Translations under genes and position numbers: made by a program
Shown here: positions 1,333 to 31,971 of the stretch, in pieces
Numbering within the stretch: position 1 is the stretch's first letter
Layout of the letters: each line of letters begins with the position of its first letter
Assembly: GCF_000003815.2 (NCBI RefSeq)
Contig: NC_049982.1
Span: forward strand, 8,428,542-8,492,541
DNA from: Branchiostoma floridae
Taxonomy: Eukaryota; Chordata; Leptocardii; Amphioxiformes; Branchiostomatidae
Length of the DNA: 64,000 nucleotides
Direction of reading: 5' to 3'
Notes under the pieces: model-generated
Databases searched by the model: none
The model's input: the letters and a program-made list of their open reading frames with translations, nothing else
Told to the model about the DNA's origin: nothing

Positions 1333-4300
1333 ATGTCGAGGTATGGGAGAGATCCGCGGGACCAGTGTCCCCTGGACTGCAAGGTCTACGTGGGGGACCT
1401 CGGCACACGCGGTAACGAACGGGAGCTTCGAGACATCTTCAGCTACTACGGCCCCTTGAGAAACGTCTGGGTGGCTCGCAACCCTCCAGGCTTCGCGTTT
1501 GTGGAGTTCGAGGACCCCCGTGATGCTAAGGATGCCGTCAAGCACCTGGACAGAAGGTGATCCTAAACAGGATTTCACATAATCATAATCTTTTCTTTAG
1601 ATGAGTGATTTACCATTACATCTGTACAATCTGTTTCATTTACCAAGAGATGAGCTTGATCAGTTCTAATGATTGTTCTAGAGGGGGTCACAGGCTGTAA
1701 AGAAGAGTGGATGTCAGCCTGGCCCTCTAAATTGTTTTGTACATACATATAGTATGCATTATTTTGTAACCTAACTTCTAGAGGTTTTGAGGAAGATAAT
1801 CGTTGTAACTGACTGTTTTTTCCCCTCCAGAGAGATCTGTGGAGCGCCAGCTCGTGTGGAGATGTCCACAGGTATGCATGTCTATTAGAATATCCTGTGT
1901 TTTTCTGCTTACTGTCTGATGATTTAAAAGTATAATTTGCAGTCAACTTTCAGACAATTGACATAAGGATTACAGAGGGTTAATGATCTTTCTTTTTTCC
2001 CTATGTGTCTATCATCACTGGTTGAAACCATCACAACTTCAGCACGCCAAGGTTAGTGAGAAATTTACATGATGGATTTTATTTTTGTGCAGTCTGCTGA
2101 ATGCCTGTGGCTTGCCATAGTACCTGCATTTCATGAATGTTTGATTTTTTGGGCCTACTTGTGCATGGTGCTCAGGATGCACAAGTGTATGACTGACAGA
2201 AAAATGATGTCAGATGTGCTGTGAAAATTACAATGGCCTCGAAGCAGTCTTCTTGGCAACTAGAAAATTGTTGGTGTCTCTGAGAGCCAGATTGGGTCTG
2301 GAGGAATTTTGTATTTTGCCCAACTTGTTTCCATTTTTCCTCTATATGTGATGCCCTCATACTGACACCACCTTCACTTTGGACGAACACACTTGGTTGC
2401 AGCAAGGGAAGGTGTGCATAACTTCGCATTGCTAGTACACACCCACCCTCAGTGCACAGCACAATATCACAGACTGTGCCAATGTATTACAATCTCTGCT
2501 GTCAAACAGGACAAACAGCCTTCAGAAAAGGCAATTGTATGCTCCTGAAAGGCTGTTCTTTCATTACATGTCATAAATATAGACTTACATAAAATACATA
2601 AATCGGTCTGTTTAAGAAGAAGTATATCTGTTTGAAGAAAAAGGATGTTATAAGTTGAGAATAAAGCATACGCTTGAAATCTATTGAAATCCCCGCTCTT
2701 CATATTGCATCTATTGAATGCTGTAAAGTTGTATGAAAGCAAAGATATTGACACATACTCTGGTGTTTCATTGTTGAATTTGGTGGAAAAATTGAGTCTA
2801 TTTTGCTGAACTTCTTTTGTTTCCCCTCTTATGTGATGACCATAAATTGACAACATATTCACTTGGGATTACAGCAAGAGAAGGTGTGTATGCATATCTA
2901 CTTTCTTTTTCTTCTTCTGACATTTGAAATAGAATTTTGTATTTGTTAGTGTTATTATATGATATTGTATCTGCCATATCTCCATTCTTGAAATGGAATC
3001 AAATAAAAACAATGATCATGTTGATGCAAACGGTATATTTCCTTTCTTCCTTTCCTACAGGAATGGGAGGTGGTGGTCGACGTTCGCGATATGGCCCGCC
3101 CCCTCCGTATTATCGCCGCCCCTTCGACCCGCTAGACCGATGCTATGAATGTGGCGAGCGTGGGCACTATGCCCGGGACTGCTACCGCTACCGCCGCCGG
3201 TAATGACACATTTCATACCTTTCCGCAACCTACCGTCTACTAACGTAGCCATATTTCCTTGGTTATTTTCAGAAGCTTGCTTTGTGCTCTTACCGTAAAT
3301 TGTTCTCCCCCCTCATGTACAGTATAGACATTCCCGTCTTAAGTGTTTGGTGAACATGTAAGTAGACTCCACTCTGCATGGCTTACAGAAAGTCTGGGGC
3401 CTAATCTTGTTTCCTTTTTGGCTACCTGTATTTTGCTGCTAGCAGAAGAGAGTGAGTATATTGAATGACCAGCCCATGTTGATTTGTTACTTCATGTTTT
3501 ACATACTGGTAAAGTGCTTTTCTTGTAAGAGTGCCATGCCATATTCTAGACTGTTCCTGTTGGCCACTAAGTCAACTTTCAACATGTCAGTAGTAATAGT
3601 AGGAAACCAATGTATAACCCATGATATTCAAGTAAATGCAAAAAATTTCTTTATTCCGCTTCCCGAAAGTTATGGTTGGACATATTTTACTATAGGGAGA
3701 TGGATCTGTCCCGAATTTACTTCTGAACCTAGCAAACACTACATAAAATAGATGAGACCAAAATGAATTTTACATGCCACTATATGGAAAGAAAAACAGT
3801 GGTATTCTTAGACTATTGTTTTCCAAGTAATGTCTAAGACTATTGGCAACATATGTGGCATGAGAACATTCTAGGTATGGCGTTGGTAGCCTTACGTCTG
3901 TATGCGCATCTCTTATTGCACATGGAATATTTTTCTTTTCTGCATACTTATTATACTTATTCTGTGCCACTTGGTGTAAAACTTGCAGGCGGTTTTCCTC
4001 CTTGAGTCAGTTCTCCACACGCACCACATGAGTCGTTGAAAGTTCTCCATGTACCTTCTGTGGGCGCCAGGCGTGTGGCACACTCCCTGATCGGCACTCG
4101 CCAATCAGCGTAGTCTACATCATGTGATCGGCGCTGAGCCAATCAGCATACAGTTGTCGCCACGCTCATGATCAGCTAGCCAATCCCAGCATGTGTTCCT
4201 CCCACACATCCACCAATCCGATAAAGTCGACCATCGGCCATTCAGAAAACGGCTCTCAAGTCAGTTTCGGCTCAGCCGTCGACACATTCGGCCCTTGTGT

Positions 4301-6762
4301 GAGCCAGAGTTGATCGACCTACTCACCCAGCATTCTACCATACCGTTGATTATGTGTGAGATTCGTCCGACACTCTGCACTGTGCAGTGTTACGACAGTA
4401 GATTCGACTCCAGTAAACCAGGTGCCATATACTGTCTGTAGTTAAGTTTGCTGCAGTTAGGGTAGGTATGTACTGCACCACCTCACATCTTACTCAGATA
4501 GCATTGCCACAGCTAACCAAAATTAAAAGTAACTCTGAAAAAAAAATGTGATCAAACTTGACCAGAAACATGATTCGAAGTTAAGTGACATTTCATATTG
4601 ACAAATTTTATAAAGATCTGTTTTTGCACAGTAAACACTCTTTTTTCCCCTTTTCTTACAAAGGAGGAAAAAAGACTATTTTTTGCTGTGAAGATGGGAG
4701 GTGGTGAGATGCTATGAAGATTGCTTGTCCCTGCAGTACTGAATGTTGTGGAAGTTTTGTACAGCTACAGTTACAGAAATGACAGCTCTTGTGTTTGGGT
4801 TGATTTGAACAACTTTTGTGTGGTCCAAATAAACTAAAGAAATCTCATTGCAATTTTTGGCCAGATAAGCAACAACCTAAGCATTGTTACCAACTTCACT
4901 GCATCCTATATTGTGCATTGTTGTACTCTAGGGGGCTACCTTGCTACAGTAATGACATATTACAAAAACTTTGTCTTCCTTCCATGCTGTCAAAAAAAAT
5001 TGACCACCTTTTAACAGGACTAAATCATGATCTGCATTCTTTTTCTGAATCATTGCCTATTTTCTTTATAATAAAAAAAAATCTGAAGATGAATTTCAGG
5101 CACTGCCAAGCATTTAGAATGTGACTAAAATGCCTGAGACGTTATTTCACAACTGTACCTTATAGATTATCTACTTTAACTTTTTACTTGGAACTGTCAT
5201 CCTAAAATCATTCTTTCTTCTGCTTTCCTTGACTGGGAACTATCCACCTAAAGGATCTCTTCCTTTCAATCACTGGTGAAATCTCTATCTTGATTTATTG
5301 TCAGTCTTTTGACAAATCCCTGGTATGACTTGGCAACTCAAATTCTTCACCACACAACCAAATCTTGGGTTTCGTTGGGTATTGTAGTCACTGTAGTCAC
5401 GACAGCATTGAAGTTCAGGCTGAGGCCAGTTAAGACAAATCAATATACATTGTGGTAATAAGTTGTCCAGCTAGGCAGGGGAATTGGTTATATGTAAGAA
5501 GACAGGTGTAAATGTTGCTTTTGACTCCCACGTAAGCTACTGCAGGTCCCATGGAAGAAGTGCAGGCCCAGAAAGGTTGACAATGTCATGCGAATGTTGC
5601 ACACCGTAAGCCCAGTCTGAGCTGACGGTTTGTGTGTCTGTGTCCTCGACAGGAGCCGATCCCGCAGCCGTGACCGCCGTCGCCGCACGCGGTCCCGCTC
5701 CAGGTCCCGCAGCCGCGACCGCAGGAGGAGCTACAGCAGGAGCCGGTCCCGCTCGCCCTCCCGCTCCCGCAGTCGGAGCCGCAGCAGGTCCCGCCGCAGC
5801 AGGTCCCGCAGCCACACGCCCCGCAGCAGGTTGGCAGCTCTGCTTATTTGTGTTGCTTTGGCTCGGAAAAATGCTTCCTGTTTTAGCCATGAAAAAATTA
5901 GGGTCGGTAGGTAGGGATCAGAGTTGTAGTCAGCGTCCGTCCTTTGACGGAATTCTGCAGCTGGGGACAGAAAATGATTTTGTTCATTCGTCCTGAGCTC
6001 CTCTGTGATGGACAGAAATTGATATGTAAAGGTATAAAAAACTGTCCCACTTGTGTTATTCTTTACTAAGACAGATGCCATCGAATAGCTTAGTCTACCA
6101 GCAAAATTTACACCTCAAAATGCAGGAAATAGCGTTTCAGAGGGTCTAGACTTCAAAATTTTCCGGGGGAGCATGCCCCAGGACCCCCCATGAAATGTGG
6201 CGCCTTGGGCGCTCAATGGGATTCAAAATCAAGGAGACGGGAAATGATTTCAGGCTGGCTACAACCCTGGTAGGGGTTATCTTTTTTTTTACACTCGGCC
6301 AAAACTTATACAAAAACATTTCAACAAAAAGTAAAATGGAAATGCATGAACACATATTTTTATTCTCTTCTTGCACTTAATATGTTGTTCTGTTACCCTA
6401 CAGGTCTGGCTCCAGGCGTGAATCCCGCTCCAGGTCGAGAACTCCTGAGAAGCGGTCCCGTTCCCCGTCACGTGGTCGCAGGTAAATAACCCCCTTCTTT
6501 CACACCTATCTTGGATATTTTCCACAACTTTTGCATGTGGCAGTTAAAATCATTTGATAGGAGGGAATAGGTTTAGCATACTGTGTTTCATTTAACCTGG
6601 TAACAATCACAAATACAGAATGATGTGATATGGCTACTATGAAACTGCCTTAAAAGGGAAAATTTCTTACAGAAGTGAAAACTTTTCTGTTTTTGCAGCG
6701 GTTCTCCAGACAAGCTTAAAGAGAACGGAGTAGAAGATGTGCAGAAGGAGAATGACGACTGA
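1333..6762 (+). CDS. SRSF7: SRSF7-like serine/arginine-rich splicing factor (gene A), 6 coding exons, 240 aa
   Basis: Coding exons: 1333-1556, 1831-1871, 3061-3199, 5653-5829, 6404-6481, 6699-6762 (723 nt, 240 codons plus stop; human SRSF7 is 238 aa). All junctions are GT-AG and in frame. An N-terminal RRM (about residues 15-88) carries RNP2 KVYVGDLG and the RNP1 region [13 protein letters not shown]. Exon 3 of the coding series adds a Gly/Arg/Pro linker and a CCHC zinc knuckle, [14 protein letters not shown] (C-x2-C-x4-H-x4-C), the feature that separates SRSF7 from SRSF3. The next exons encode RS/SR dipeptide repeats, and the tail is acidic, ending in NDD. By family it is a nuclear SR protein that binds exonic enhancers and regulates splicing and mRNA export. 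The start is the first ATG of the RRM exon, with family-typical MSRYGR. Introns hold candidate microexons (2043-2883) and a candidate poison exon (3989-4421). Confidence 0.93.
2043..2051 (+). other. Candidate 9-nt microexon in gene A intron
   Basis: CACGCCAAG is preceded by a long pyrimidine-rich tract and CTTCAG and followed by the good donor GTTAGTGAG. It lies between coding exons ending at 1871 and starting at 3061, whose junction is phase 1. Nine nucleotides keep the frame and would insert three residues before the Gly-rich linker. Splicing is not proven; the evidence is only flanking signals and frame. Confidence 0.35.
2403..2883 (+). repeat. Duplicated intron segment with two more 9-nt microexon candidates
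   Basis: A stretch near 2330-2425 is repeated, diverged, near 2815-2895; both contain a TATGTGATG-type motif, then CACTTGG, then an acceptor-like AG. In each copy a 9-nt block is bounded by AG and GT: CAAGGGAAG at 2403-2411 and CAAGAGAAG at 2875-2883. Both would keep the reading frame without a stop. Donors (GTGTGC, GTGTGT) are weaker than that of the 2043 candidate. Confidence 0.3.
3989..4421 (+). other. Candidate poison cassette exon of gene A
   Basis: A 433-nt block in the intron between the zinc-knuckle exon and the first RS exon. It starts after ACTTGCAG and ends at AAACCAG|GTGCC. Spliced onto the preceding exon (which ends in CG), it meets an in-frame TGA at 4029-4031, so inclusion would truncate the protein before the RS domain. 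It holds four CCAATC motifs (4101, 4139, 4180, 4213) spaced 33-41 nt, and several CGAC/GAC triplets. Genes B and C carry comparable blocks in the homologous intron. Vertebrate SRSF3 and SRSF7 are known to use poison exons; use here is inferred. Confidence 0.5.
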
Positions 6763-12380: not shown

Positions 12381-14399
12381 TAACCTGCCAAAATGTCAAC
12401 TTTTTTCCTGTGGCCTTAGTGTGCAGACATTATGATTTATATACTCTAGTGTATATATACATAAAGCCTGTATACATTAAGTTATATACATGGAGACTTC
12501 AGTCTATTAGCATTACTATCATCATTTTGGGAGAGTTGTCAGGAGTGAAGTTTTTCTGCATCCAAATTTAAGCAGCATTCCCCGAGATGATGTTTTCAAT
12601 TATCTAAGGAACCTCCAAAAAATTGTCACATTAGCCTGAGGTGGCCTTTTTGCAGAAGTTTGACTGTATCGAGAGGTTGTAGAGTGATCAATGAGGCATG
12701 TACAGAGCTTGAACCCAAGACTTGAATGTCAACTGTCTAGAATCCAAACCAGTTTTTTTATCTACCGCAGACAAGCAGACAGATATTAAACATGTTGCTT
12801 TTGGCCATTGAAGGAGAGTGTTTTGGCAAATCCCCACATTGTGAGTTAGATTGTCTGTGAATGAAGGTGGATCTGTTGGCGGTTGAAGGAAACGTGGTAT
12901 ATGTAAGGAAGCACACCTGTATTCCTCTGTTGTACCCACCTCCGAAACATTTGAAACGCCCTGGGCAGGGCCGACTACAAAGATTTTTATCACGTAAGTG
13001 GAGGCGATTATGTGTAATCATAGTTTGGCAGTGTGTAATTTCAGCAGGTTGTCACAATGGGAGTGTTCAGACAGGGTGACAATTATGTTGCCTAATATAT
13101 GCACTCCCGGTAGATTTACACTCCAGTTGACTTTTACCCGAAGATGCAGGTATTTGTGTCCTGTGGGCTGGATCATTGGGTTACATATGCTGGGCGGAGG
13201 TGCACAAACTTTATGAGGTCATTGCCACTTACCTGTAAAGCCAGTGTGTTATGCTGATGCTGTTTTATTAAAACACTACATAAATATCTTTAATTTTTTT
13301 TCTCTCTGTGATGGCATCACTACCACAAATGAGTCAAGATGCTCAATTAGTTTTAGTAACAAAATCATTTGCAGCAAGAAAACTGGAAAACCTAAATTTA
13401 TAGAAAACTGGAAAACCTAGATTTATAGAACAATGTGACTACAAGTCAACAATATACTTCTGTTGCTTTTCTTGTTTTACTAGGCCCTTTGTACTGAAAT
13501 TCAGCCCAGGTATAACCGTACTACAATAATATCTGTGATACAGTACTGCAAGCACAGATGGCACATAAATGTTATCACTTCGAATTCTGTTTGAGTAGGG
13601 CAGCTGTCAGAAGGACTATTGTTACCATATCAATTTGGTTTCTTCTTTTAAACCAACACACCACTAATCAACAAAAGATAGTCATTAAAAGGGGTATTTT
13701 ACTGTCCGTACATCCATTTCTGTCGACATATGCTCAGATGTTTGGTCCCGAGTCCACACAGAGCGTGGTAGTCAATTCTCCAGCCTTGTCTTTCTACAAA
13801 GAAGCTGAGGTACTGTGTAATATATATATATATGTCGTTGCTTATACCCACAAATATTACATGTATGCTGTTCAGGCAAGTCGACTTAGTGCTGTACATG
13901 TATTTGTATATGAAAGCCTTACAGCCATGAATTATTCAAAAGGTGTTTCATCCAAATGAAGTCCTAAGATAACCATAACTTTATCAATTATTCATTCTCT
14001 TTCAAAAATGTTGAAAGCCATTCTTTAGGAAATTTCTTGGATGTTGACAATGGGCATCATTTAGTAATTGCCTGCCAATTTGTGGGTACTCGACTGTGAT
14101 GTACCTGCTGCCAGATGTTAAATTGTCGACTGGCCTTGAAATGTACATGTAACAGGTATTATCAAAGAAAAAAGTCACCTGAATATTTGCACATATGCTT
14201 TCTTAGACAGGATGCCAGCGTTGTTAGCTTTAGCTGATCAAAATCTAACGCAGAAACTGAAGCATCATAACTCATCTTCTCATCATAAAGGGGCAAAGCA
14301 AGAATTTTTCTTCAAATTGGTTTCTGATAGCCAGCCACAGGACAGTCACTTTTTTTTCTCCTTGTAACGATAGAAAAAGGCAGATCCTGCCCCGCAGTG

Positions 14400-14660
14400 T
14401 CAAGCAGTGGCTAGAATACTAGTAATTGGTAGTCATGTGTATGTAGTCCAGTTAGCGCCCCAGCCTCTGAATCTGGAAGAGTTTGAGTTTGATTTTGGCC
14501 GTGTCACTCACCCGATATGCAGGCTATCAGCAAAGGTTTCAGTCCTTATGACATGTCCACTGTTCATTGTGCTTCTTGAAAAAAGCTAGGGGAAGTTCCC
14601 CGATACGTCACGAATAGTGAAAGACTTATAAACTCTTCAGTCAGCTAAACTGGATCGATA
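14400..14660 (+). mobile_element. Degenerate tRNA-derived SINE
   Basis: AGTTAGCGCCCCAGCCTCTG is followed by GAGTTTGATTTTGG, which look like mutated tRNA A- and B-box regions, and then by a non-tRNA body ending in TTCACTTTTACT. It lies just upstream of the first coding exon of gene B. Confidence 0.35.
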
Positions 14661-14730
14661 TCACTTTCACTTTTACTATAACAATGAAAATTCAGCTCTA
14701 CTTTCTCGTTGTTCCTCAGGAGGTCGCGAC

Positions 14731-17700
14731 ATGTCCCACTGGAGAGACACCGGTCCCATCGACTGCAAAGTGTACGTGGGTGACTTGGGTCAGTCTGGCA
14801 CCAAGCACGAGCTGGAGCGTGCGTTCAGCGCCTTCGGACCCCTTAGAAATGTCTGGGTCGCTCGTAACCCTCCGGGCTTTGCATTCGTGGAGTTTGATGA
14901 TCCACGTGATGCGAGGGATGCTGTGGACGCATTGGACGGGCGGTAAGTATAACATCATCCCACAGATATTACAGCTTTCTTTTCTCCACTGACTTAGATG
15001 AACATTAGATGAATACTGAAATGATAGATTATGAAATATTGTCCATTCCCTTCAAAAATAGATTGTATTTGAAGATCTTGAAGTCTTGGTTCTTCAAATT
15101 TGCGTGTGCAAAATATGTTTAGATCATAATGTGAGAATTATCTGGAGCTCCGCTAATTCTACATAATACAAAAGTAACTCAAGCAGCTTGATATGTGTTT
15201 TGAAGACTCCAGTTGCTTGAGTGACTTTTGTATTGAGTATCTCATAACCTGGATCTCTGAGCTTCATCGACGTACCCTGATTCTAATTTCCAGTTATCTC
15301 TGCGGCCGCCGTGTGCGAGTAGAGCTGTCTCACGGAATGAAGCGTTCCTCTCGATACCGTCCTCCCCCTCCGAACAATTACCGCGGTTACGACCGTCCAC
15401 AGCGCCGACGCTCAAGGTGACTTCATGCTGTTTTTTATTGTGTTTAGTCAAAGCATGTAAATATCAGTTGCTATTGCTTATGGACAGGTTAAGGTTGATT
15501 TGTTTCGAAGGACATAGTGGTTTCAATTTTGTTCTTGTCTTTTGCCAGATAACATGAGAGAATGTAATGCATGTATAGGTCCTTTACTTTCATATAAGAA
15601 GAAATGGAATATTTGACTGTGGAGGTCTGAATGTTAGTTGTGGGTGAGATGATAAATGTGTTAAGTGTTTCAGTGGCAGACAGGTTACAAGTGTAGCACC
15701 TAGATATCCAAAGATGTGGAAAAAAAAATTTCAGTTTGTACCTTAATGTTTGAGCCTCTAAGACTTAGCCTGATCATCGTGATTCAGAAACAGAAGCCCC
15801 AAATTAATTTGTTCCTTTGTTTTGTGTGTATATTTTTTCTCAAGATAATTTTGAAAATGGTAGGGAATTTCTGACGAAGATGTTTCTTCTATACATGTCA
15901 ATGGTAATGTAGTCCGAGTGTCAAACGAGGGTGTAATGTTTTAAGTATCTGGAGTGCAGTGCAGTAGAATAGAGGTGCAAGCATGTGAGATGCTCTGATT
16001 CAGTGTACCTGTGATGTCTTGAGGTAATTTTTTCATGTCTTTTTCCAATCCATATGCTCAGTAATTTTTAATTTGGTTTTCTATAGTCTAGTATCCTCGA
16101 TATTAACTGTCCCAACAAAACCCCTTACAGAGTGGCCATCTCGCTTCTCCACCCCATCAGACTACATTAGCCAATCAGCTCAGCCTTTGGCAAGTCACGT
16201 GACCGTCGCCATCCAATCAGCATTACCTGTCACCTCAACTACACCTTCAGCCCCTCCACCCAGCATGCCTTGCTGCAGCCCTTCTGGCCAATCACAAAAC
16301 AGCGCCCGGCCTCAGGCACAAAGAAAGCATCAAACCTTCTACAGCGCGGCCTTCCAATACAGTCTCAAAAACTCAACAATTGTGCTCTTCCGTCCCTACA
16401 ACCAACCAATCTCCAATGAGGACCATCCCTCATCGATCACAACCCCCTTGACGAAAACTACTCACCTTTACTTCAGCGTCTTTAGAAAAAAACAGAAACA
16501 ACTACGTACTACAAGCCAAACTACAAAAAAATGCCAGCTTCTCCACCTACTGTCTGCAACACCCACCTTCCCCACCACATTTGAGCCGTCTGTCTACTGC
16601 TTAAAAACGAGTCGGGTTTCCACGGCAACTTGTCATGGACGATGCTGTTATGACCTTGCCTCATCTTTCGACCACCCTCCAATACCGCCTGGCCCAACTT
16701 AACAACCCTGCCGCCTTTCTACTTTCAGCCTCTTGGGCCGGTGTAGGTTATCTGTTCTTGTCTCTAGACTAGTCTGTAGTTAGACACACACAGTTTCTGC
16801 CACTGTAACTTGAGCTCCAGGATGGCAAAACTTACCATGCACCAATTGAACTTACAATGTATTTCAGACTCAAAAATTGATTTTCTTTTCGGACATTTTC
16901 CTCTCAGTCTCAAGTTTGTGGCAGCTGTGTTGGGTTGTGTGTGAAAATATGAAGGATTCTTTGATTGATAACAATGTTAACACAATCTCTTGAAAATGTT
17001 TACTGCTAATCAATATAACTCAGTGATTTTGATCTAACAGCAATGCCATCCAGTGTTCTGCTGACACTTGACAGCATGAAGGCTGAAAAATTAACATTGT
17101 CTTTTGTATTTTTGGACTGTGCTGTGTATTAGTTTCAGGTGGACTTGTAGGCTGTGCAGTTTTTTTTTTTTCTATTTTCATACAATGCACAACATACATG
17201 AACATGTGAAACATTGTGTTGTTTGTCCTATCTTTGACATCTATGTGACATGTACGAAATAGTCACATCAACTTAATTTAGCAACACCTATGGTAGGAAG
17301 TTCCTAGATTAGAATAGTGTGGTAATCTGATAGTTTCTCACATTGTTGCACAGTCGGACCCTGTGCATATGATTTGTAAATTGGGATTCGCCCAAGTACA
17401 GGAATTGATCTGATTTACATATCCTGGTTCCAAGGGCAAATCAATCCCACCACTCAAACCAGGATTTGTGAATCAGGTTCGATCCCCATGCCTGGGTGGA
17501 TCCCAATTTGTGAATCCTGGTATGAACAGGGTCAAAGATTCAGCATTTACCATACCAACACCTTCAACAGCCAGTCTCACTTATGATAGGAGGGTAATTC
17601 AACTACGTTATTACCTGTAGCTCATTTCTATCAGGAACGCCGTGCTCAGGACAAGCTCGACAACTTTCCATACAAATTCATCTATCAGCAACCTGTCTCA

Positions 17701-20077
17701 TGTATCCTGTGGGATTATGATATAGGAGAACTGTCTTGAAAAATTTAAGTTACTGAGATATGGAGCAAATGCATTACCAAGGCTTGTCTCAGTTCTAAAA
17801 TGTCATGCTACTTTATGTATAAACCACACCTTACATAGCGGAGAGAGCAAAGTATGATTCAGATATGCACCTAACAAGGACCAGTCATTGTAGAATTGCA
17901 AAATCTGACGTGATGATTTTTTTCAATTTGCTAAATACAGTCTTCATTACATGCACTTGATTGACACTCCAAAATTGTCGAAATCTAAAGCCTTAGATAA
18001 ATAAATTCAATTTACAGTTAGTGTTACCCACATCTTGCTCTGTATAATGGAAGTAACACTACTTCAGACACAATTTAAGTCTGGTGTTGGACTTCTTCGT
18101 GAAATATATGCTCTCTACATGTATCTTGTATCTTTACAGTGTGTGAAATACATATTGTACTTCACAGTGGCCAGTATTAGGCTGAATCTTTTCTCAGTCC
18201 ACTGAGCCAAACTTTCAGATGAAAATCAAAATAAGCAATGATTATTTGACAGGTAAGGGTTTTAAGATCATGATTCTTTCACATTGATAAATTTGGTCAT
18301 AGATTGGAAATTTGGCAATTTTATCTGACCTGGACAGGCAAACATCTGTCCTTAGACGTGCAGTGTGCAACTCTTTACTTTCAAAATGTATTTCATACAC
18401 TACTGATTGATGTGTTTTTACTGATTGAGAAAGTGGCTGGAGAGAAACATAAAATCTTCATGTCCATCAGGCAGTTACAACACACAGACTGGTGAGGCTG
18501 TGCTGCTCCTACTTTGGGCTTAGAACCCAGGACTTACGGCTTAAGACTTCTGTCCCTAACTGAGAATGTCCTTCCAAACAGGTCGTTGTCTCCATACCGG
18601 CGAGGGCCCTACAGTCGCAGCCGCAGCAGGTAGTACTGAGCATGCCCAGTTGTGTTTGCAGTTTGACAGCCAATCACAGCACAGCAAAGCTGAGTAAAGT
18701 TGCCATGTCATGCGGGAGACTTAACATTCAGAGAACACACTTTCCAGTTCTTCTATGTAAAAACAAGGAAACTGATTAGTGTAAATGCACAAATGGTGGA
18801 CTCGTGTATGTGCATTCACATCTGTCTTCAGTACAGATCTGAAAGGTCTATGATTTTGGCTTTCCACAGAGTATGGAACATAAATATCAAATGGTAATAG
18901 CAAACCAACCAACCTCACTTTTATATGAAAACTCCACGACTAAATGACTAGTGCAGAAACTTACCACATATCAGACTCCTGACTTGGCAGATTGGGTGAC
19001 AGCAGTCTGGGTGTTTGAAATTATCATTTTCCTAATCTTATATCTAATTCAAATCAGTACAGAAGATTGTTCCTCAAATTTGGTTTGACAGATCCTGTCT
19101 TAATTTCTCAATCATTTTCTGTAATAATTTCCCACTTTCATGACCAGCTCCTTTCTCCGCTGTGTGCTGCTTTTCGTTTTTCATGTTGATTTGAACTTAA
19201 AGTTTTATATAAAACAACCTCTCTTTGACATCATCCTTATAACAATAGTTTATGCATTTACATGTAACAAGCTTTACTAACACTTGTTCTGGGGTTGAAG
19301 GAAAGCAGTTTGCACATACAATGTATTACTTAAATGTTAATTAACAACTTGAATTTCAGCTGGATGCTGCCATACAGACTTCTGCCTCTCTTGCAGCCTG
19401 TGGTAACACGACGGTTTACCGGCCATGTTTTTTTTTTTTTTTTGCCACGTCCAGGTCGCCGCGTGACAGACGACGGAGCCGATCTCGCTCCCGTTCCAGG
19501 GACAGGAAACACTCGAGGTCTCACTCTCATTCCCGCAGGTGATTGATTGTCTGCTCTCTTGTCTGATTGCTTCAGCGGAGCTCGTGGCACAAAACGTGGT
19601 CATTTCTGACATGCTCAAGGCACAAAATGTGGTCATTTATGACATGCTCATGGCACAAAACGTGGTTATTTCTGACATGCTTGTGGCACAAAATGTGGTT
19701 ATTTCTGGCACATTCATTTGTTTCAAAATAAAGCATGTCATTGCTTTTTCGCAAGGATGTGGTATCAGACAGGAAATTTGGCAAAGAAAATACTTTTTTT
19801 TCTCAAATATTCAGGGATATTATTTGATATTGTAGTGTTACTGTTTATGATTTACTACAATTTGTCCAAAATGTTACCAGTAGATAACAGTGTTCAGTGT
19901 TGAAAAGGATTACACAGCGAAAACTCCACATAAAGATAATAAAAATCTTCTTGAAGTATGAATTCTCTAGAGTGCTGTTCATTCAATCAGGCTTAATTGT
20001 TTTTGTTGTTGTTTTTCAGTCGGTCAGCCTCCCCTATCAATCTCAGTCCCCGAGGCAAGAGTCCGCTAGACGACTAG
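14731..20077 (+). CDS. SRSF3: SRSF3-like serine/arginine-rich splicing factor (gene B), 5 coding exons, 174 aa
   Basis: Coding exons: 14731-14942, 15294-15416, 18582-18629, 19455-19538, 20020-20077 (525 nt, 174 codons plus stop). All internal junctions are phase 2. Residues about 11-85 form one RRM with RNP2 KVYVGDLG and RNP1-region [10 protein letters not shown], closed by [12 protein letters not shown] as in SRSF3. There is no zinc knuckle, which points to SRSF3 rather than SRSF7 (human SRSF3 is 164 aa). A PPPP/Tyr/Arg linker leads into short RS exons and the tail ends GKSPLDD. By family it is a nuclear shuttling factor in splicing, 3'-end processing and mRNA export. The ATG lies 11 nt after an acceptor, with a non-coding exon 1 near 9034. 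Gene C downstream is its duplicate. The exon at 19455 has a 16-T run in its polypyrimidine tract. Confidence 0.92.
16092..16740 (+). other. Candidate poison cassette exon of gene B (conserved in gene C)
   Basis: This block in the intron between exons 15294-15416 and 18582-18629 is highly similar to 27353-27976 in gene C, while the intron on either side is not. Similarity begins about 10 nt before the acceptor (TTTTCTATAG) and runs past the donor GGGCCG|GTGTAG. From the acceptor at 16091 the spliced frame hits TAG at 16168-16170, the same position as in C. CCAATC motifs lie at 16171, 16213, 16288 and 16405, and GTCACGTGAC at 16194-16203. The sense strand is C-rich and G-poor. A second acceptor at 16086 would keep the frame open to 16702. 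Confidence 0.6.
17357..17533. mobile_element. Foldback element, 177 bp
   Basis: The left arm (17357 to about 17430, with AAATTGGGATTCGCCCA) pairs with the right arm (about 17457 to 17533, with TGGGTGGATCCCAATTTG), and the outer ends GACCCTG and CAGGGTC are complementary. It has no coding capacity. It is a MITE-like hairpin in an intron of gene B. Confidence 0.6.
19582..19715. repeat. 33-bp minisatellite, about 4 units
   Basis: GGCACAAAA(C/T)GTGGT starts units at 19586, 19619, 19652 and 19685, an exact 33-bp period. It sits directly after the donor of the RS exon ending at 19538 in gene B. The unit is a multiple of three and open in one frame, but the host exon would read into TGA at once if the intron were retained. 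Confidence 0.75.
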
Positions 20078-20695
20078 CTCTGCCTGTGTGAGCCTCAAGG
20101 GGGAACTCTGACCCACCAGCCTTCCAACAGACCTACTAAAGGCCTGTTTGATGCTTAACCAACCTGTAGAGGACACGTTGTTCAAGTCATAATCTAGTAA
20201 TTGTTACTTGTTCTGCCTCTACATGTAGTATTGCTCAATTTGCTGGGAAGGAAATTTTGTAGTTTGTTTTATGTTATGAATTGATATTTAGCAAGTTACC
20301 CCTCAGTTGACACATGCTTTTGTATTGTATTAATCGTATCCTTAGGCTCTTAGAAAAAAAGGTCCTATCATGTTACGCTATTATAAGTACTGTATTGTGT
20401 ATCGTAACTAGAATGCAGTAGTCACTGTTGGATTCTGACTTCTAAAGATATTTTCATTTACAACAGAGCAAAAGCTAACCTGTCTGCTAGTATATTTGCT
20501 TAAGTTTCAAAGGAAGGTTTATATATATCTATACCGTGTGAAACTCCTCTATTTTCTTGTTTTAACTTTTTTTGAAAGTTTTAGGGAAACAAAATTCCCA
20601 CCTGTCATTTAGAAACAAAAGTTGATTATAAGATAAAAGTAGAAATCTGCAATTTTGCAGGCCAAAAAGTCCAAGGTCTTATCAGTTAAGTAGAA

Positions 20696-20701
20696 AATAA
20701 A
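20696..20701 (+). terminator. Likely poly(A) signal of gene B
   Basis: AATAAA lies about 620 nt after the stop codon at 20075-20077, in AT-rich 3' UTR. Between here and the first exon of gene C (20710-22780) I see no gene, only AT-rich sequence. Confidence 0.45.
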
Positions 20702-22779
20702 ACATGTTAACTATCACATGTTGTAACCAAATTCCATAAGTGTTCTCTACCTTATAAGCAAAATCCAATGTGTAGTAAAGGTTGATATAGAAAAGGCTTG
20801 TGGACCTTCCTGTTGGTCTTGTCTTCTGAAGGCAGATCTATTATACATGCAAAGCACTGTAAAAATTATGTATGTTGTAACACACTGTTTACGTTGTCTG
20901 TGAAATCGTTGTATGTCATACTGGAGGGAAACAATGTTTTTGATAGTCTTTAATACATGCATTCTCCTTATTTCTTTACAAAAGCCAATTAGCTTTTACA
21001 ATGTATATTGTAATATAGAGGAAGACCAAGCTTCATTTCATTTTGTTACAGGAGGCACTGAATGATCTCAGCAGTAAACAGTGATCTATGCCTCAGTGGT
21101 ATATTGTCAGCTGGTACCAGGGATGTCAGTTAACACTCTTAGTAATTAGAGCTCCAGCTTTATGTCACCCAGAACTATCATGTTTCTGGCAAGTATGAGC
21201 ATATTGTTGAATGTTTTGTTTGACAAAGACTAAAGATTACTAGAGGCTGTCTCCAGCTTGTTTCTCACACTCTACTCATTTGTTTGGGTGCCCATGTTAT
21301 TTTTTTTTTCATTTTTCATTTTAATGTATTTTTGTCAATTTCATGTCTTAAAGTTAAGACTTTGGGGCACACTTTGAAATTTTTGTCCATCCCAAGTTCC
21401 CAACAAGTAGGCAAGTTTCCATCCTGGGATACGAGCAATCGCTGTTGTTGTATAGATATCCGGGGTATTGGACGGTTGTTGCCTACCAGGACGTCAGTAG
21501 ATTGGATCAAAAATTGATATTCAAATTAGCGGCTCAAATTACTGGTTCATATGTAAAGCAATCCTTTGCCAAACACCTGCTTCTTGCCTACCACTGTGTC
21601 ACCATGACATCATCGCGATCCCTCGTATTGAGGGACGGGTTCTGGAGACAGTCCTAGACAGGTGCAGCCTCTGGAGTGCATGTTGTAGTACTTTGAAGGC
21701 GCCTGGTTTTGAGCCTTGGGGTATCAAGTGAAACATTTTATTTTTTTTTTCAGTATTATATTTTATTGGTCAGTATTGTTGGATCTTTAACATATTCCGA
21801 GTTGTACCCCCTGCAGGTTATGTACATCTGCAGTTCATTGTAGTTTATTTTTAGAAAAAGATGCTTGAAGGTATCTGGTGATAAATGTTATGAAGCTAGA
21901 TTATCGGAAACATGTTATATATGCTACATAATTAGCACTCATTTATCATTACGTACCCTTTTAAGTACATGTAACCCTTGTTTCATTATGTACAGAATTA
22001 ATATGTGCGCAGCAGTTACACAACCTTGAAGTCAATGTGCTTCGTTGGTAGCAAACTTTTCCACCTTAAGTTCTCATTAAAGACTGTTGACATGTAAAGG
22101 AGAGACCTTTGTTGTGTGATTTTACAGCCTGACAAATGATCAGAAGCAATCTTATTTTTCTTGTCCAGGCTCAAGTATTATCAGGGGAGCAGTATTCAGC
22201 ATTCTGCCTGCCTCACGGAAGTTTCCCGTGCCCAGGCAGTGTACGGACAAGCCCTGTGTCTGTTCTGTTATCCCTGATGTGTTAGTCTTCCGCGGCATCT
22301 GAAAAGAATCTGGGTTTTACCCTTGGTTACATAACGTTATATGCTAAATAATATAGCTCTCAATAATTATTACGAATTGTTTCATTCTGTACAGACTTAC
22401 ACAGCTGGAGGCACTATTCAGTATAATGTTACACCTTGTCCTTGGGATAACCTGACTTCACTTCTAATTAAATGGGTTTCAAAGAGAAGAAAAAAGACTA
22501 TCCCAAGTTTTACTTATGCATTATAAACTTCTGAAGTAACAGCTATCATTAACTCAAATGTTAAATTTAGGAATTTCACAGAAGACTAGTCGGGCAGGGT
22601 ATTAATGGATATTGTCACCCGTAAACATGCCTGTCTTGATGATGATCGCTGTATTGACCAGGAGATGCTGAAAATGGGACATTTTATATTATGACAAAGA
22701 AAGGTCGATAGTTTCGACCAAGAAAGTTACAAGTGGGTGAGAGAAAGAAATGTGTGAAAATGATCCTTTCCACCCCTCA

Positions 22780-22893
22780 AGTTTTACATGGAATGGTCCT
22801 TCCCCACATGACGTACACCTTGCGGTGCGGCTGCGCATTGCTGTCGGCTTGGGAGGCCATCTCCCGGGCTCTGTGAGGTGTGCGCCCATCGAG
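22780..22893 (+). promoter_or_regulatory. Promoter / non-coding first exon of gene C
   Basis: A locally GC-rich stretch containing GGGAGGCCATCTCCCGGG, a YY1-like core in the same place as in genes A and B. It ends at CGAG|GTGAGTT (22893). The donor context is shared with gene B's first exon, which supports a duplicated first exon. The next acceptor is at 25926. Confidence 0.5.
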
Positions 22894-25800
22894 GTGAGTT
22901 ATAAACATGTTTTCAGCGGTTTTCCCCCCATAAAACTCATAGTCTGTGCTCTGATTGCCGGTGAAGATATTCGTGCTTAGATCTGCGTGTTATCGGATAG
23001 TCGCAAATCTAGGATTGGAGGCGAGTAATCGGCATCGGCGTCGAGCGTGCTCCCGACGCTCCGGTTACAAAGAATTTCCTCAGGCCGCTGTGCTCCGCCG
23101 CTGCCAGACAGACGTAGTGCTAGGAAGCGGTCTAGCGAAGAAATAGACGTAAAGCAAGGACAACAACAACGGGTTGTTCTTCGTGGTAGAAATTGCTTGA
23201 TGAGCACATAATTTCACAGTGGTCGGTGCTATCTTGGTGCTATGATCTTCTATTTCAGCTGTGAGGCTTTCAAACGATAATTTCTCAAATTACAGTAGAG
23301 CGCTTGAGGAAAGGTGGGAGGGGTGGCCGTGGTTTGTTATTATTTTGCTAAATTACCTGATTAGCCTTACACATAATTTGAGAAGCTTTTAGGAAATGGG
23401 CTAGTGTACAAGAGAAATGAAATGGGGGGAGGAACATTATCACGTAGAAATTAACAGATAATGCAGAGCACAAAGGCATCCCGAAGAAGAAGAAGAACAC
23501 CCCAACCCTCTTGAATAAATAAACTAACCTTTGCAAGCGCGCCATGGCGCTCAGTTCAGGTGCTTGGGTGTGGGCCAGCAACGTTAGTAACAAATTCCGT
23601 TGAACCAACTGAATTTTATATTAACTGTTGTGGATGAATATGTTTAAATTACAGTACACTTTCCCAAGGGAAATTGAGTAATGACTAATGAGGATTTTGA
23701 AGAAGCTTGGTGGTATAAAACATGTGAAAGCAAAATTATTCCAGATAATTTGCGCACTCAACTTAAATTATCCAAAAAGAAAAATGAACAACTATTCATG
23801 CATGGTTATTGTTTTGCAGGTAAATATTTCGATGAAATTGACAAGTCTGTTTCTCTCACTCTGCTATGTTTAATTTACCCAAAGGTCAATATTTTGGCAT
23901 ATTATCACTTGCTTGATTTAACGGTTAAATGTTCCCCTGAATTGAAATACCAAATCTACCTATCTTGGATGTGCAAAGTTTTCTTGTTTGTGTAATTGGA
24001 TATTTTACTGTAGAAACACAGCCTACAGTCCCTGTAGGTTAGTCTATTGGCACTCACCAGATACGGCTACAAAGTAGATAAACTGGGACTGGAGGATTCA
24101 TTTGTGAACTATTGTGGGTCCTGCCTTAGTTGACAAACAGGACAGCACCTCCGATTCAGACAAATCCGTGAGACTTAAAATGTAAAATGGGAAAATATAT
24201 AACATATGCAGCATTATGCATAAATTTGCACCCTTTCTTCTACGATCTTGAACCAGGTAAGTTTTTCTTCTCTTTGCCCAGGTTAATTATGCATAAATAA
24301 TGCCACCTAGGAGCCCTGGTTGTAAAAGGTATTTCAAGCACTGTACTGTGTTGACCTAATTTGCAAAAATGACTGAGTATGTTGTACTTGCTCCAAATCT
24401 TATCAGAAAATCACACACACGTGCATTTGTCCCCCTTCAGATCCAATCACTCAGGTGCTATTAATGAGGGAACTTTTGTATTGTCCTTGATGTTTCCAAC
24501 ATTACTACTATCCTTGTCCCTGATACGGGAAGTAGATAATAGCCCTTACTCAAGGAACCTGCAACCTAGCTAAATTGTAACAGCTTTCAAACAAAACTCT
24601 TGCAGACTATACTTGGCAGAAAGTCAGACTGACAGCCCAGGCCACTCTGTAGATTGATTGAATCCCGCATGTGTCTCTGGCTGCCAAAAGCCAGGTGTCA
24701 CTCACTGGCAACCCCCAAAGGGCAGAAAGGTACGCTATCACAAGGTTGATCTGTATCTGTGTAGCCAGTATAGTCACCCTTCTGGTTATATAATTATAAC
24801 TCAGAGCGAGATGTCACACATTTTTTGCATATCTTGCTGCAAGCATGTTTTAATCTGTCAAGTGGGGATGCCCCTACTGTACTTGGTTCCACCCAGGAAA
24901 TTTTTTTGAACTCATTAGTCCTGGATTACTTGAAGGCATGACTACTTTCTTAATGTTTCCCGAGCTGGTAGTGGTACTTAAGTAAGAATGTGTAACACAA
25001 AATCCGCCAGCGGATGTTGGGCGGGCCCGGCTGCTATAACTTAAGATTTAAGCAGCCTAGTGTTACTTTGAGTAGTTAGCAGTTGGTAAGTCCATCAGTT
25101 TAAAAGTAATTTGGTGCATAGTGAACATAAACTGTCTTCAGTCTTTGAGTAAAATCCAATGTAGATCTGGCCCAAAATTATGCAAAGATTGAAAGGTACG
25201 CTACTCAGAATGGGTAACAACATTAGACAATTCTATAACGTTATGTGTTTGTAGGTCAGCCTTTTGTGTGAATATCTGGAACAGGTAGCCGAAATGAAAC
25301 ATGTTCTAATGATGTTAAGTCCTACAAAGATAAATATACAAAGCCATTTGTTGGTAGCTAGGCAGGTGTCTCTTATTGTTCTGTATGGAGTCCTTTGTTC
25401 TGGTGGTGGCATCACCTGCCCTGGGATCAAGGACCGAAGGACTTGAGCCGTGAGCAGTTACCAAACAACCCGAACGGAACAATTGGCCTTTCTATTAGTA
25501 ATTGGAGTCATTACCGGTCAATGTATATGTCAAAGCAAGCAGCACCGCCTTGGCTTGAGTCATTCATTGGTTGCCTTTGTCTTTAGTTTGAGTTTGAGGA
25601 CATAGGACACAAACGTCTGTTTCAATAGCACTCCACTCTCAAGGAATTGATAGTTCTCCCTTAGAGCTGCACAGTCTATGCAAGGTCATGAGGAAAGGTA
25701 CATATATGTTTGATTACTGTAGAAATAATTGTGCATTGTACAACAAGAAGTTTTTTCTGCATGCTTCTGTTTTTTAGTTTCAGACTGGTTGTTCTTTGTT

Positions 25801-25946
25801 GTTTTTTTAGTTGCAGACTTGTTGAACACAGTTAACAGATACTGTACTTATATGGTAGGCTGTGGACACAAATTGTCCTTCATTCTTCCCTGTACACTAT
25901 TATAACATGTATACTTCCCACTGTAGGTTCAAGAGGCAGCTACAAG

Positions 25947-28900
25947 ATGTCCCATCGCAGAGATGCCGGGCCAATTGACTGCAAAGTCTACGTTGGTGAT
26001 CTGGGTCAGTCTGGTACCAAGCACGAGTTGGAGCGGGCGTTTGGCGCCTTTGGGCCACTGAGGAACGTCTGGGTTGCCCGTAACCCAGCAGGATTCGCAT
26101 TCGTAGAGTTTGAAGATCCACGGGATGCAAGGGATGCTGTAGACGCGCTAGACGGACGGTAAGATTGCGCCATCAAACACTATTTATTTCAATCCATTTT
26201 TTTTTACTCTTGTATGTAAGAAGCAAGCATAGAAATGCGAATAGTGAAGAGAAGTGTTATGGAGAATTGACAAGTTCGAGAAGGGACTTACATGGCATGC
26301 AACTGTTAGGTACTTGGAAAACACACTGTCCTCAGTGTCCTGATTTAGCAGTCCAGCCCAGCAGTCCAGCCTTGTAAGATAGTAGCTTTATTTCGCTCCC
26401 TACAGCTGCTACTCACGAGTAGCAACATAGACAGCTTGTAACTAATGTAAGGCTGGACTCAAGGCTTATGTCCTCTGAAATTGCCAGGCTTAAACTCAAG
26501 CTAACTTATTTCTGTTGTTCTCCAGGTATATCTGTGGCCGTCGTGTCCTAGTTGAAATGTCTCACGGTAAGAAGCGCTCGTCTCGATACCGGCCAGCACC
26601 CCCGCCCAGTTATCGTGGCGGCGGCGGTTACGATTACCCTCAACGCCGGCGATCGCGGTGAGTCTTCTGCTACGTTCTGTCACATTGACTGATTGATATG
26701 TGCAAGCGTTGCTTTTTGTATATCAAAGCGTTCTTCCAAAATGTGCTACTGTGAAATTTTGCAAAGTAGAAGTGAGCACTTGTGTTTTTCTTGAAGGACA
26801 GGTAAAGCAAAATGCAACACTGCCTGTCTTCTCTAGACACATGGATGTAAAGGTCAAACCTATTACAGTGGTGCTTGCCTGAAGTGACTCGTGTAGGTTA
26901 AAAATCCTCCCAGTAATGTGAAGAGAATAATTGGGTTGTTTTTGATTATTCATGCATGCCTAGTTTTGTTTCACTTATCTGGCAAATTCATTTTTGGCAT
27001 ATTTATATTCAATTGTCCTTTGTTCAAGATTGAGCACTCACATTGTGTTTTGTCATTTTACCTACCTAATGCTTGATATATCTTCTCACCAAAATTGTCC
27101 CCAAACACTTAGAACAACAGGCTCCAATCAAGCATCCTAAAATGAATTTTTTTTTCTGGCTGAAATGATTTATTGGGCCAAAGCAAGCACCATTTATGTA
27201 TTACCAGAGTGTTAAAAGTTTGTTAATCATGCTATGTATGTATGTAAAATTCTCTGTGGTGATAACTTAGTTTATCTGTAACTTTAGTAGAATATCTTTC
27301 TCTGGGTAATACAAGTAGTTTGCTTGGTGATTTGTGGGCAGGTTTTCTATAGAATCCTCGATATTAACTGTCCCAACAAAACCCCTTACAGAGTGGCCAT
27401 CTTGCTTCTCCACCCCATCAGACTACATTAGCCAATCAGCTCAGCCCTTGACAAGTCACATGACCGTCGCCATCCAATCAGCATTACCTGTCACCTCAAC
27501 TACACCTTCAGCCCCTCCACCCAGCATGCCTTGCTGCAGCCCTTCTGGCCAATCACAAAACAGCACAAAGAAAGCGTCAGTCCCACCTTCTACAGCGCAG
27601 CCTCCTATACAGTCACAAAGCTCTTCTACTCTCCAGCCCCTCCAACCACCAAACTCCGATAAGGACCGCCTTTCGTCGCAAGCCCCCTAGACCAACCCAC
27701 GTCCTTACTCCAGCGTCTTTTAACAAAAGAAACAGCCACTACGAGCCAAACGACCAAAAAAAGGCGCCGTCTTCTCCGTCTACTGTCTGCAACACCCACC
27801 TTCCCCACCACATTTGAGCCGTCTGTCTACCTCTGCCAAAAATGATCCGGGGGTTCCTCGACAACTTGTCATGGACGATGCTGTTTTGGCTTCTCCACAT
27901 CTTTCGACCACCCTCCAATACCGCCTGGCCCGACTTAACAACCCTGCCGCCTTTCTACTTTCAGCCTCTTGGGCCGGTGTAGGTTATCTGTTCTTGTCTC
28001 TAGACTAGATTGTAGTTAGACACACACATTTTCTGCCACTGCAACTTGGGAAGACAGCCGGAATGGCATTTCATGGTTTCAGAAAAGCAATCATCCCAGA
28101 TTGACCATCCCAGAATGTCAGCATTAGGAGCACAGGAGTCACTGGGATGAATTGCTTTCACTATCTCAAGTCAGTGGCAGTCAAACATGTGTTTGATCAT
28201 GCGTGCAAATCTGATGAAAAAAAGTCTTTGGAGAGTTCACATACAGCTAACCAAGAAGAAATCATGATTTGTCTGATGCAAGAATAGAACTCTTTTGCTG
28301 TAAGTTCTTTACACAAAGCTGCATGAAGGCTAAAAAACTAACACCCTTGATTGTGTTTTGTTTTCAAAGATGTTTTCTATGTCACAGTATGTTTGTGCCA
28401 TAGTAAGACATCATTTACCATATTTCTGCTTTGATTGCACAAGAATTAAAGATCGTTCTTTTTTTCTTTCTCAATTTCTAAACTTTCTTGAATGTTTCCA
28501 TGGTGGTATCTGCAAAGTATGCTCATTACTAGTTAGACCAGGAAATAGTCCAGTGATTTTCTGCTCTGAATTTGTGAGACTACCAGATTGAACATATGTA
28601 ACTAGTAGCTGAAATCAAAATGTCAGCTTTCTAACTGTCTCCATGCTTTTTCCTTTGTTGAGCAGTTTAAAACATGCACTCCAATTCCAAGTGGAACATT
28701 GGCTTTGTGTACCTTTTAAAAGATTTTTTTATCCAAAGCACTGTACTTGCACAGTCAAAGAATCTACTAAATTGATAATTGCTTGTATTATTCAAATTGA
28801 TGGCAACTGTATTGAAATGAGATACTCATCAGATAGGGTAGTAACTGAAAAATATGAGGGAAAGGTAATAAAAGTCTTATGATTATTTTTATTCAGTTTC

Positions 28901-30501
28901 CCTAAGAAGAAAATGTGAAACGTAATGTAGCGACCATCATCATTATTATGATGTGATAGCCTTGTCTTGCGTAGAAACAAAACAAAACTCGCATTAAATG
29001 ATCATGACTGTTCCACTCTACCCTTGACTGTTCCACCATATCCTTGTAAAACACATTCTGTGTTGAACTTGTATTTCATACTTTGTAACACTTGACATGT
29101 GTAGTTAGATATATCATCTCAGAGCCAGCCCGTGGTGATGACTCGCCTGTGCTGCTCTGGGAATCGAACCCAGGAAGCGACATGTCCTGATGATGAGTAT
29201 TTTTCCAAACAGGTCGTTCTCGCCGCAGCGCCGACGCCCGTACAGTCGCAGCCGCAGCAGGTAGTACTGAACCCGTCATGTTTGTTTGCAGTTTGACAAC
29301 CAATCACAAGACAGTGTGTTATTCTAAAGCTGTCCTGTCAAAAGTCTCATAATATCAGAGAATTCATAGAGCCGGTATAGACAAAACACACACAAAATTC
29401 CTAGGAATACCATTGACCTAGAAAAGAATTGTACCCAGAAGTCTGAAGCCTACTGCCATTTGTTCTCGATTTATTTTGACATTTATGACAGAAGAAGTTC
29501 CTGTCCATTTCAGTACTATCCTGACAGGGCAGCTTTAGGGTCCAACTTTTTGACTGCACTAATCCAAGTCTAACGTTCATGTCTCAAGGCTTGGCACCCA
29601 GAGTTACCCCATACAAACAGTCTGGATTTGGTGAACATTAGCATGCTTACCTTTTCATCTTAAACACAACTTCCTTAGTGTTAAATGGCTCTTGTTGCCC
29701 CTTCCCTTTCAATTTGGTGAGTCCTCCCTGAAACATCAAATAGCCCCCATGTCAAAAAAGCAGATTGTCTCTTTTGGTCTGTGTCATTGAAAATTTCCTG
29801 ACACTACTGCAAGTCAAGGTCTGAATGCCTTCGAAATTTTGCAGTCTAGCCGTTGATTGGAAGCAGTTTTCAATACAAATGAAGACTGTGTCATGAGCCT
29901 TGGTGCATGAAACATAGTTGGATGTGATGTATAAGTGATTCCTCAAAGTCAAAGCAATCTAATCTAACATCACTTGTGGGATATTAATGAAGAGGTTTTG
30001 GGTGTGTTGGTGTTTTTATAACCTTGCATTTCAGCTGGGAGGAACCCTGCAGATTCTGTCTTGTTACTTGTCGATAGGTTGGAACTCAACGTTGTCTCGT
30101 TCTCTGCTCCGTGTCCGCAGGTCTCCCAGGGACAGGTCGCCCAGGGACAGGTCTCCACGCGACAGGCGTAGGAGCCGCTCCCGCTCTCGTTCCCGCGACA
30201 GGAAGCACTCCAGGTCTCGTTCCCGGGATCACAGGTGAGCTGTTGTTCCTTTGTGTCACCTCCCAGCAAGTTGAAAGAAATATGTCTTTGGAAATATAGT
30301 TTTGCTGCCTTCACATAGGCGGGCTATAGTTGCTGACAGGAACTTAACGAGAAAGCACACTATGATGAGTCCCTAAGACTAGCACCATCTAACAAGTTGT
30401 TTTTGTTGTGAACTGAACTAGATTTGTTGTTTCCTTTCATCAGTCGCTCCGTCTCACCCCTCAACAAGAGTCCACGAGGCAAGAGTCCAGGAGACGACTA
30501 G
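25947..30501 (+). CDS. SRSF3: SRSF3-like serine/arginine-rich splicing factor (gene C), 5 coding exons, 187 aa
   Basis: Coding exons: 25947-26158, 26526-26657, 29213-29260, 30121-30234, 30444-30501 (564 nt, 187 codons plus stop). Exon count and phases are identical to gene B, and the first coding and 48-nt exons have the same lengths. The RRM carries KVYVGDLG and [10 protein letters not shown]; the conserved NPPGF before RNP1 is NPAGF here. The linker has a GGGG run. The fourth coding exon is 30 nt longer than in B because a five-residue SPRDR unit is repeated three times. The C-terminus ends GKSPGDD. There is no zinc knuckle, so the assignment is SRSF3-like. The role, nuclear splicing and export, is taken from the family. 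The ATG lies 20 nt after the acceptor. I infer a tandem duplication of B, with partly different regulation possible. Confidence 0.92.
27353..27976 (+). other. Candidate poison cassette exon of gene C (conserved in gene B)
   Basis: The counterpart of the gene B block, in the same intron. The acceptor TTTTCTATAG ends at 27352; the donor GGGCCG|GTGTAG follows 27976. Joined to the exon ending at 26657, the frame reaches TAG at 27429-27431, exactly as far in as in gene B. CCAATC motifs are kept, while the E-box is CACATG instead of CACGTG. Indels relative to gene B shift the long open frames, so the conservation is not that of a coding sequence. Confidence 0.6.
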
Positions 30502-31965: not shown

Positions 31966-31971
31966 AATAAA
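31966..31971 (+). terminator. Likely poly(A) signal of gene C
   Basis: AATAAA lies about 1.46 kb after the stop at 30499-30501. It lies 231 nt from the opposing signal of gene D. Confidence 0.5.

Follow-up and report, generated by a model that had tools for sequence, protein, structure and literature searches.

In the genome of the amphioxus Branchiostoma floridae, a stretch of 64,000 nucleotides (contig NC_049982.1, positions 8,428,542 to 8,492,541 of the forward strand; hereafter the window, with all positions counted from its first letter) carries three serine/arginine-rich (SR) protein genes in tandem on its plus strand, here called A, B and C. A conserved intron block in the two SRSF3-like genes, B and C, is probably an alternative exon that carries a stop codon, i.e., a poison exon. 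The blocks of the two genes have sequence constraint, position, phase, stops, the absence of a coding signal and a cluster of hexamers in common, and the putative element is older than the duplication that gave rise to B and C. A diverged version in gene A suggests that it may already have been present in the ancestor of SRSF3- and SRSF7-type genes. The three genes are as follows.

14731-14942, 15294-15416, 18582-18629, 19455-19538 and 20020-20077, plus strand: coding exons of gene B, SRSF3-like, 174 amino acids, gene model closing exactly
25947-26158, 26526-26657, 29213-29260, 30121-30234 and 30444-30501, plus strand: coding exons of gene C, SRSF3-like, 187 amino acids, gene model closing exactly
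1333..5900, plus strand: gene A, SRSF7-like, with an RS stretch in addition to RRM and zinc knuckle; exons 1333-1556, 1831-1871 and 3061-3199, the next from 5653 (partial model, with exons given up to the one starting at 5653 and the 3' end untraced)

Pfam recognized an RRM_1 domain in gene B (E-value 9.8e-19) and gene C (2.1e-18), both of which have RS tails, and the closest solved structure to gene B in the PDB is SRSF3 (E 5.6e-50). The two proteins agree at 150 of 174 aligned residues with a coding nucleotide identity of 77.6%, and 53 of 83 four-fold sites differ (Jukes-Cantor distance 1.43), i.e., the synonymous sites are near saturation. The introns following the second coding exon, 15417-18581 in B and 26658-29212 in C, occupy the same position in the same phase (2); the matching intron of gene A (3200-5652) also has this phase and lies directly before the RS exons. 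Gene A matches RRM_1 (2.7e-17) and, at residues 115-129, zf-CCHC (E 1.4e-5, above the cut-off), which places a CCHC zinc knuckle between its RRM and RS domain. Together with the RS stretch, these domains form the SRSF7 layout described in PMC7948361. Gene A was called SRSF7-like because of the knuckle, and in the PDB it matches SRSF3 best (E 5e-40), followed by the SRSF7 RRM (1.1e-33).

Inside the phase-2 introns, the block extends over 16087-~16816 in B and 27353-~28050 in C and can be divided as follows.

16087..16740, plus strand: candidate poison exon of gene B, delimited by identity to C; two possible starts (16087 and 16092), donor GT at 16741 or, alternatively, 16743
16741..16816, plus strand: conserved intron just downstream of the proposed B donor, with a pyrimidine-rich start
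27353..27976, plus strand: candidate poison exon of gene C, preceded by AG and followed by a donor GT at 27977; TAG after 76 nt
27977..28050, plus strand: conserved intron downstream of the proposed C donor, from the alignment to B

The original prediction described 16092-16740 and 27353-27976 as strongly similar within introns that had otherwise drifted. Counted over gap-free columns in B coordinates, strong similarity held for the ends, with 205 of 210 columns identical in the 5' part (16092-16302) and 98 of 105 in the 3' part (16636-16740), and did not hold for the gap-rich middle (16303-16544; 153/211, 35 gap columns), so that the block is a mosaic of well-conserved ends and a poorly conserved center. 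Intermediate values were found at 16545-16618 (62/74) and 16619-16635 (15/17), and the longest identical runs measure 102, 76, 50, 49 and 43 nt. The drift of the surrounding intron was borne out: only 35 of 74 columns agree upstream (15980-16054) and 32 of 71 downstream (16819-16900), the introns around the block are mostly unalignable between B and C, and elsewhere in the intron one stretch of 39 nt is 77% alike (17074-17112 in B, 28321-28359 in C). The block was also expected not to be a genome-wide interspersed repeat, and this candidate was rejected. When 673 nt of block B were searched against the 513 Mb assembly, two candidates were obtained, both scored and both in the window, namely B itself and the copy in C (E 3.3e-200, 84%); the search skips very common words, and its repeat counts are lower bounds. 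In this comparison of two paralogues, the constraint on the block is stronger than that on the synonymous sites. Since the four-fold sites are near saturation, the similarity of the block is not explained by a recent duplication and would require selection, possibly helped by gene conversion.

The 5' edge of conservation coincides with the polypyrimidine tract and AG of an acceptor, while the sequence just upstream (16055-16091) has 23 of 32 identical columns and five gap columns. Thus, the predicted common acceptor start was found, with the qualification that gene B has two adjacent AGs (acceptor sequence TTTTCTATAG/TCTAG/TATCC, compared with TTTTCTATAG/AATCC in C) and hence two exon starts, 16087 and 16092. 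From 16092 in B and from 27353 in C, a TAG follows after 76 nt, as originally predicted for both genes; the first in-frame stop from 16087 ends after 616 nt of the exon and is still premature. The distance from the stop to the end of its own exon is 545-576 nt for C 27353 and B 16092, and 38-44 nt for B 16087, where the stop reaches more than 50 nt before a later junction via exons 3 (48 nt) and 4 (84 nt). Inclusion would therefore place a premature stop more than 50 nt upstream of a later junction for both B acceptors and for C. A premature stop was obtained with every acceptor tried (16087, 16092, 16131 and 16161 in B; 27353, 27392 and 27422 in C), except for a microexon reading of 12-18 nt from 16729 or 27965, which keeps the protein frame. 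This microexon (to 16740/16746 or their counterparts) is disfavoured, as it would ignore most of the conserved block.

Scored with a matrix not trained on this genome, the block acceptors reach 6.9 and 4.7 (B) and 5.5 (C), compared with a range of 6.2-10.2 among the eight acceptors used constitutively in these genes. Weak splice sites are what a regulated exon could have. Two acceptor-like sites with scores of 9.6 and 7.6 flank the weak donor alike in both genes (16729 and 16768 in B; 27965 and 28004 in C). In addition, TTTCT occurs at three matching places (16078, 16716 and 16794 in B; 27344, 27952 and 28030 in C), one of them inside the candidate exon. According to PMC10321290, UUUCU acts as an exonic silencer for PTBP1 in exon 4 of human SRSF3.

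Several other roles of the block were considered. An alternative last exon was rejected, with no AATAAA or ATTAAA present in 16000-17000 or 27300-28300, and so was a split open reading frame (ORF) with a second frame into the RS domain, for which an ATG was found in only one of six exon ends tried (C, donor 27979) and was not common to B. No Rfam family reached the gathering threshold in the window, and no excess of RNA folding was detected in the 5' core (z +0.24) or the 3' core (z +1.29). A hairpin burying the donor was likewise rejected (z -0.66 in B and -0.16 in C); with the donor 14-mer kept, its pairing was no higher than in shuffled sequences, 53 and 89 of 200 of which reached it.

The candidate exons also contain clustered CCAATC hexamers, and a similar cluster is present in the matching intron of gene A.

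16171..16294, plus strand: three CCAATCA repeats in B (16171, 16213, 16288), the first and second with GTCACGTGAC between them; one more CCAATC at 16406
27432..27555, plus strand: CCAATCA in C at 27432, 27474 and 27549, the first and second copies with GTCACATGAC between them
4101..4218, plus strand: four CCAATC hexamers in gene A (4101, 4139, 4180, 4213), with TCATGTGA between the first two
3989..4461, plus strand: single-sequence prediction of a related candidate poison exon in the matching intron of gene A, with its donor at 4462 or 4466
18653..18684, plus strand: another conserved segment, shortly after exon 3 of B and containing a single CCAATCA (18670), from the B/C alignment; C counterpart 29283-29314

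Against a background of 29 CCAATC in 124,190 nt-strands of the window outside the islands, the four copies in A, four in B and three in C have Poisson probabilities of 5.9e-6, 3.1e-5 and 6.4e-4, respectively, all of which are post hoc, the hexamer having first been noticed in the block. All 11 lie on the transcript strand, the opposite strand having none, although B and C share ancestry and fewer than 11 are independent. The dyad TCANNTGA is conserved in A, B and C, and a module of CCAATCAGC, TCAYGTGA and CCAATCAGCAT is common to A and block B.

Unguided segmentation delineated GC-rich islands at 3985-4426 (A), 16121-16826 (B) and 27382-28146 (C), each matched by none of 200 shuffles. The best local alignment of the whole A intron with block B falls inside the A island and spans two copies of CCAATCAGC and, between these, a TCAYGTGAYCG dyad. 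Its Smith-Waterman score was reached by none of 300 island shuffles, one of 120 whole-intron shuffles and none of 30 control stretches (best 28 vs. 32), and the match by itself has a BLAST E-value of 0.15. From the acceptor at 3989, a TGA ends 43 nt into the gene A exon, and the candidate donors at 4462 and 4466 are fair (7.6 and 8.0). An element related to the B/C block thus appears to be present in the matching intron of gene A, and the two may share common descent, which would move the origin back before the B/C duplication.

A model of negative feedback could account for these features. When the SR protein is abundant, the C-rich exon would be recognised even though its splice sites are weak, and the mRNA would include it between coding exons 2 and 3; translation would then reach the premature stop, the mRNA would be removed by nonsense-mediated decay, and its loss would lower the protein level. 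Within this scheme we infer exon inclusion, transcript decay and self-binding of the SR protein (plausible for genes B and C, unproven for gene A). The idea that unproductive splicing was kept after duplication agrees with the common intron, phase, acceptor, stop and constraint and with retention of the block in both genes, from which the splicing itself is predicted.

A number of results weigh against this model. At the 3' end of the exon, the proposed donors are weak (CCG/GTGTAG, 2.3; the overlapping GGT/GTAGGT two bases on, 3.1) relative to the eight constitutive donors of B and C (4.4-11.2). The donor GGGCCG/GTGTAG is common to both genes as predicted, but similarity does not end just past it and continues for ~75 nt (16741-16818; 69/74 identical, four gap columns). 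Owing to the weak donor and this extended conservation, the exact 3' end is left uncertain, and only 12 nt before the proposed donor lies the highest-scoring acceptor-like site of the block (16729, 9.6), which the model does not explain. With respect to SR-protein binding, CNYC and GAY are motifs published for SRSF3 and SRSF7, respectively, in PMC7948361. CNYC counts, which taken by themselves favour the model, are among the highest in the window (53 in B and 61 in C, reached by five of 2534 and one of 2536 windows, the blocks' own included), but mostly because of the 36-38% C content of the blocks, and the excess over dinucleotide shuffles is small (z +1.1 and +1.5). WCWWC, a motif from systematic evolution of ligands by exponential enrichment, gave z +2.6 in B and +1.4 in C. 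GAY was not enriched in A (z +0.7) and, contrary to expectation, was slightly enriched in C (z +2.1). For gene A, the candidate acceptor is weak (4.5); the A-to-C alignment is weaker than that to B (score reached by three of 300 island and five of 120 whole-intron shuffles); and nine of 27 overlapping control stretches reach the GC-island gain of A (two reach that of B and none that of C), making the island evidence weak for A. Besides the post hoc nature of the hexamer probabilities, the heptamer CCAATCA alone occurs only twice in A (P 0.0012), and CCAATC is not named as an SRSF3 or SRSF7 site in the consulted portions of the SRSF3/SRSF7 literature.

The alternatives to a poison exon do not all exclude it. 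The block could be a regulatory element at the DNA level, such as an intronic enhancer or internal promoter: the CCAATCA repeats are presumably NF-Y-like and the GTCACGTGAC-type dyad E-box-like, each island has three or four CCAAT boxes as well as the dyad conserved in all three genes, and conservation extends outside the proposed exon. This is a rather unlikely explanation considering that the hexamers are confined to the transcript strand, that the 5' conservation edge coincides with an acceptor, and that B and C have additional conserved CCAATCA copies ~40 nt downstream of exon 3, outside the block. It is also improbable that the block acts by retaining or slowing the intron through decoy sites instead of being included. 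The weak donors and the acceptor-like sites close by (16729 and 16768) would suit such a role, and intron retention by itself gives a stop 4 nt into the intron; however, a whole ~650-nt unit with edges near splice-like sites exceeds what a decoy needs, and vertebrate SRSF3 and SRSF7, according to PMC10321290 and PMC3439968, include an exon in what is taken as the matching intron.

The identical tracts of 102 and 76 nt, found while the coding exons diverge, might instead have been kept alike by gene conversion and not by selection, a process compatible with a poison exon. As a full explanation it is very unlikely, since a gap-rich, poor middle between conserved ends, with diverged exons on both sides, is unlike one recent tract, and the related module found in A already argues for constraint; limited to the sole alignable stretch, conversion has possibly helped selection. 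Least credence is given to a protein-coding alternative exon or small nested gene, which is highly improbable. A frame of 45 codons (ATG at 16635 in B and 27871 in C) is open in both genes, and block B contains an open frame of 224 codons, which is broken in C. In none of the three gap-free segments of at least 60 nt (16089-16301, 16520-16596 and 16597-16814) did synonymous-only codons outnumber amino-acid-changing ones in any frame; the first segment has just five changed codons and carries little weight. Moreover, a Pfam scan of five block ORFs gave no match above the cut-off (one at E 0.27), with none at E 1 for the 45-codon ORF (44 residues scanned) or the 224-codon ORF. Of these readings, the poison exon is the most likely one.

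Other features of the window were also recorded. A 33-nt unit is repeated head to tail at 19580-19711 in intron 4 of gene B, with no further copy listed in 12000-32000. By eye, ORF pieces at 40747-42591 and 43822-44262 on the minus strand resemble a non-LTR retrotransposon reverse transcriptase and endonuclease; similar ORFs (CRPGWSQPSG-like) at 38305-38766, 39263-39562, 44146-44579, 48109-48573 and 48965-49417 are perhaps the antisense of repeated sushi-like exons; and an ORF at 59890-60327, broken by 100 N at 60061-60160, resembles part of a cytochrome P450.

Human SRSF3 exon 4, as described in PMC10321290, is a stop-bearing exon of 456 nt that is near-invariant among mammals; its inclusion is promoted by SRSF3 and leaves a protein of 124 amino acids with little RS domain. 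PMC3439968 reports that over-expression of SRSF3 raises poison-exon inclusion in SRSF3 and SRSF7 minigenes alike. The vertebrate parallel drawn in the original prediction is therefore confirmed with regard to a stop-bearing SRSF3 exon, and the correspondence of the introns was matched by place from the text. Like exon 4 of human and mouse SRSF3, the amphioxus candidate is an exon of several hundred nucleotides with a premature stop, located between the RRM and RS parts; it differs in its length (624-654 nt), weak donor and CCAATC cluster, and its inclusion is predicted. Gene A resembles the SRSF7 poison cassette system in combining RRM, knuckle and RS with a putative exon that carries a stop and lies in the intron preceding the RS exons, but its exon was predicted from one sequence and lacks GAY enrichment. 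The SRSF5-type unproductive splicing reported across animals, lancelet expressed sequence tags included (PMC4379411), likewise involves a long-kept, stop-bearing SR-gene exon, whereas the present block lies in a different subfamily and intron.

Unproductive splicing in amphioxus as such is already known, having been published for lancelet SRSF5 (PMC4379411); the main text of that paper names SRSF3 once and SRSF7 not at all. A table row in PMC3173450 can be read as alternative splicing in nine of 11 B. floridae SR genes. Among the matches listed in a search of titles and abstract starts of open-licence PMC papers, none concerned an amphioxus SRSF3/SRSF7 poison exon or CCAATCA in SRSF3 regulation. 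Within this scope, no earlier description was found of the strongly constrained SRSF3-type block kept in both duplicates or of its probable relative in the SRSF7-type neighbour.

The hexamer module is a new lead. It is conceivable, although doubtful, that a CCAAUC-repeat module (CCAAUCAGC, the TCANNTGA dyad and CCAAUCAGCAU) represents an ancestral recognition code of SRSF3/SRSF7-type unproductive splicing that pre-dates the split of the gene types and is read in RNA by a factor or SR-protein binding mode without description in the literature searched. Over 210 columns, the intron block of these splicing-factor genes has stayed 98% alike despite near-saturated synonymous sites in both genes, which points to strong constraint. 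If the reading is true, the presence of the element in three SRSF3/SRSF7-type paralogues would imply deep inheritance in a subfamily outside the published SRSF4/5/6 case study, and the three diverged versions would form a natural set for reading the regulatory code of these genes.

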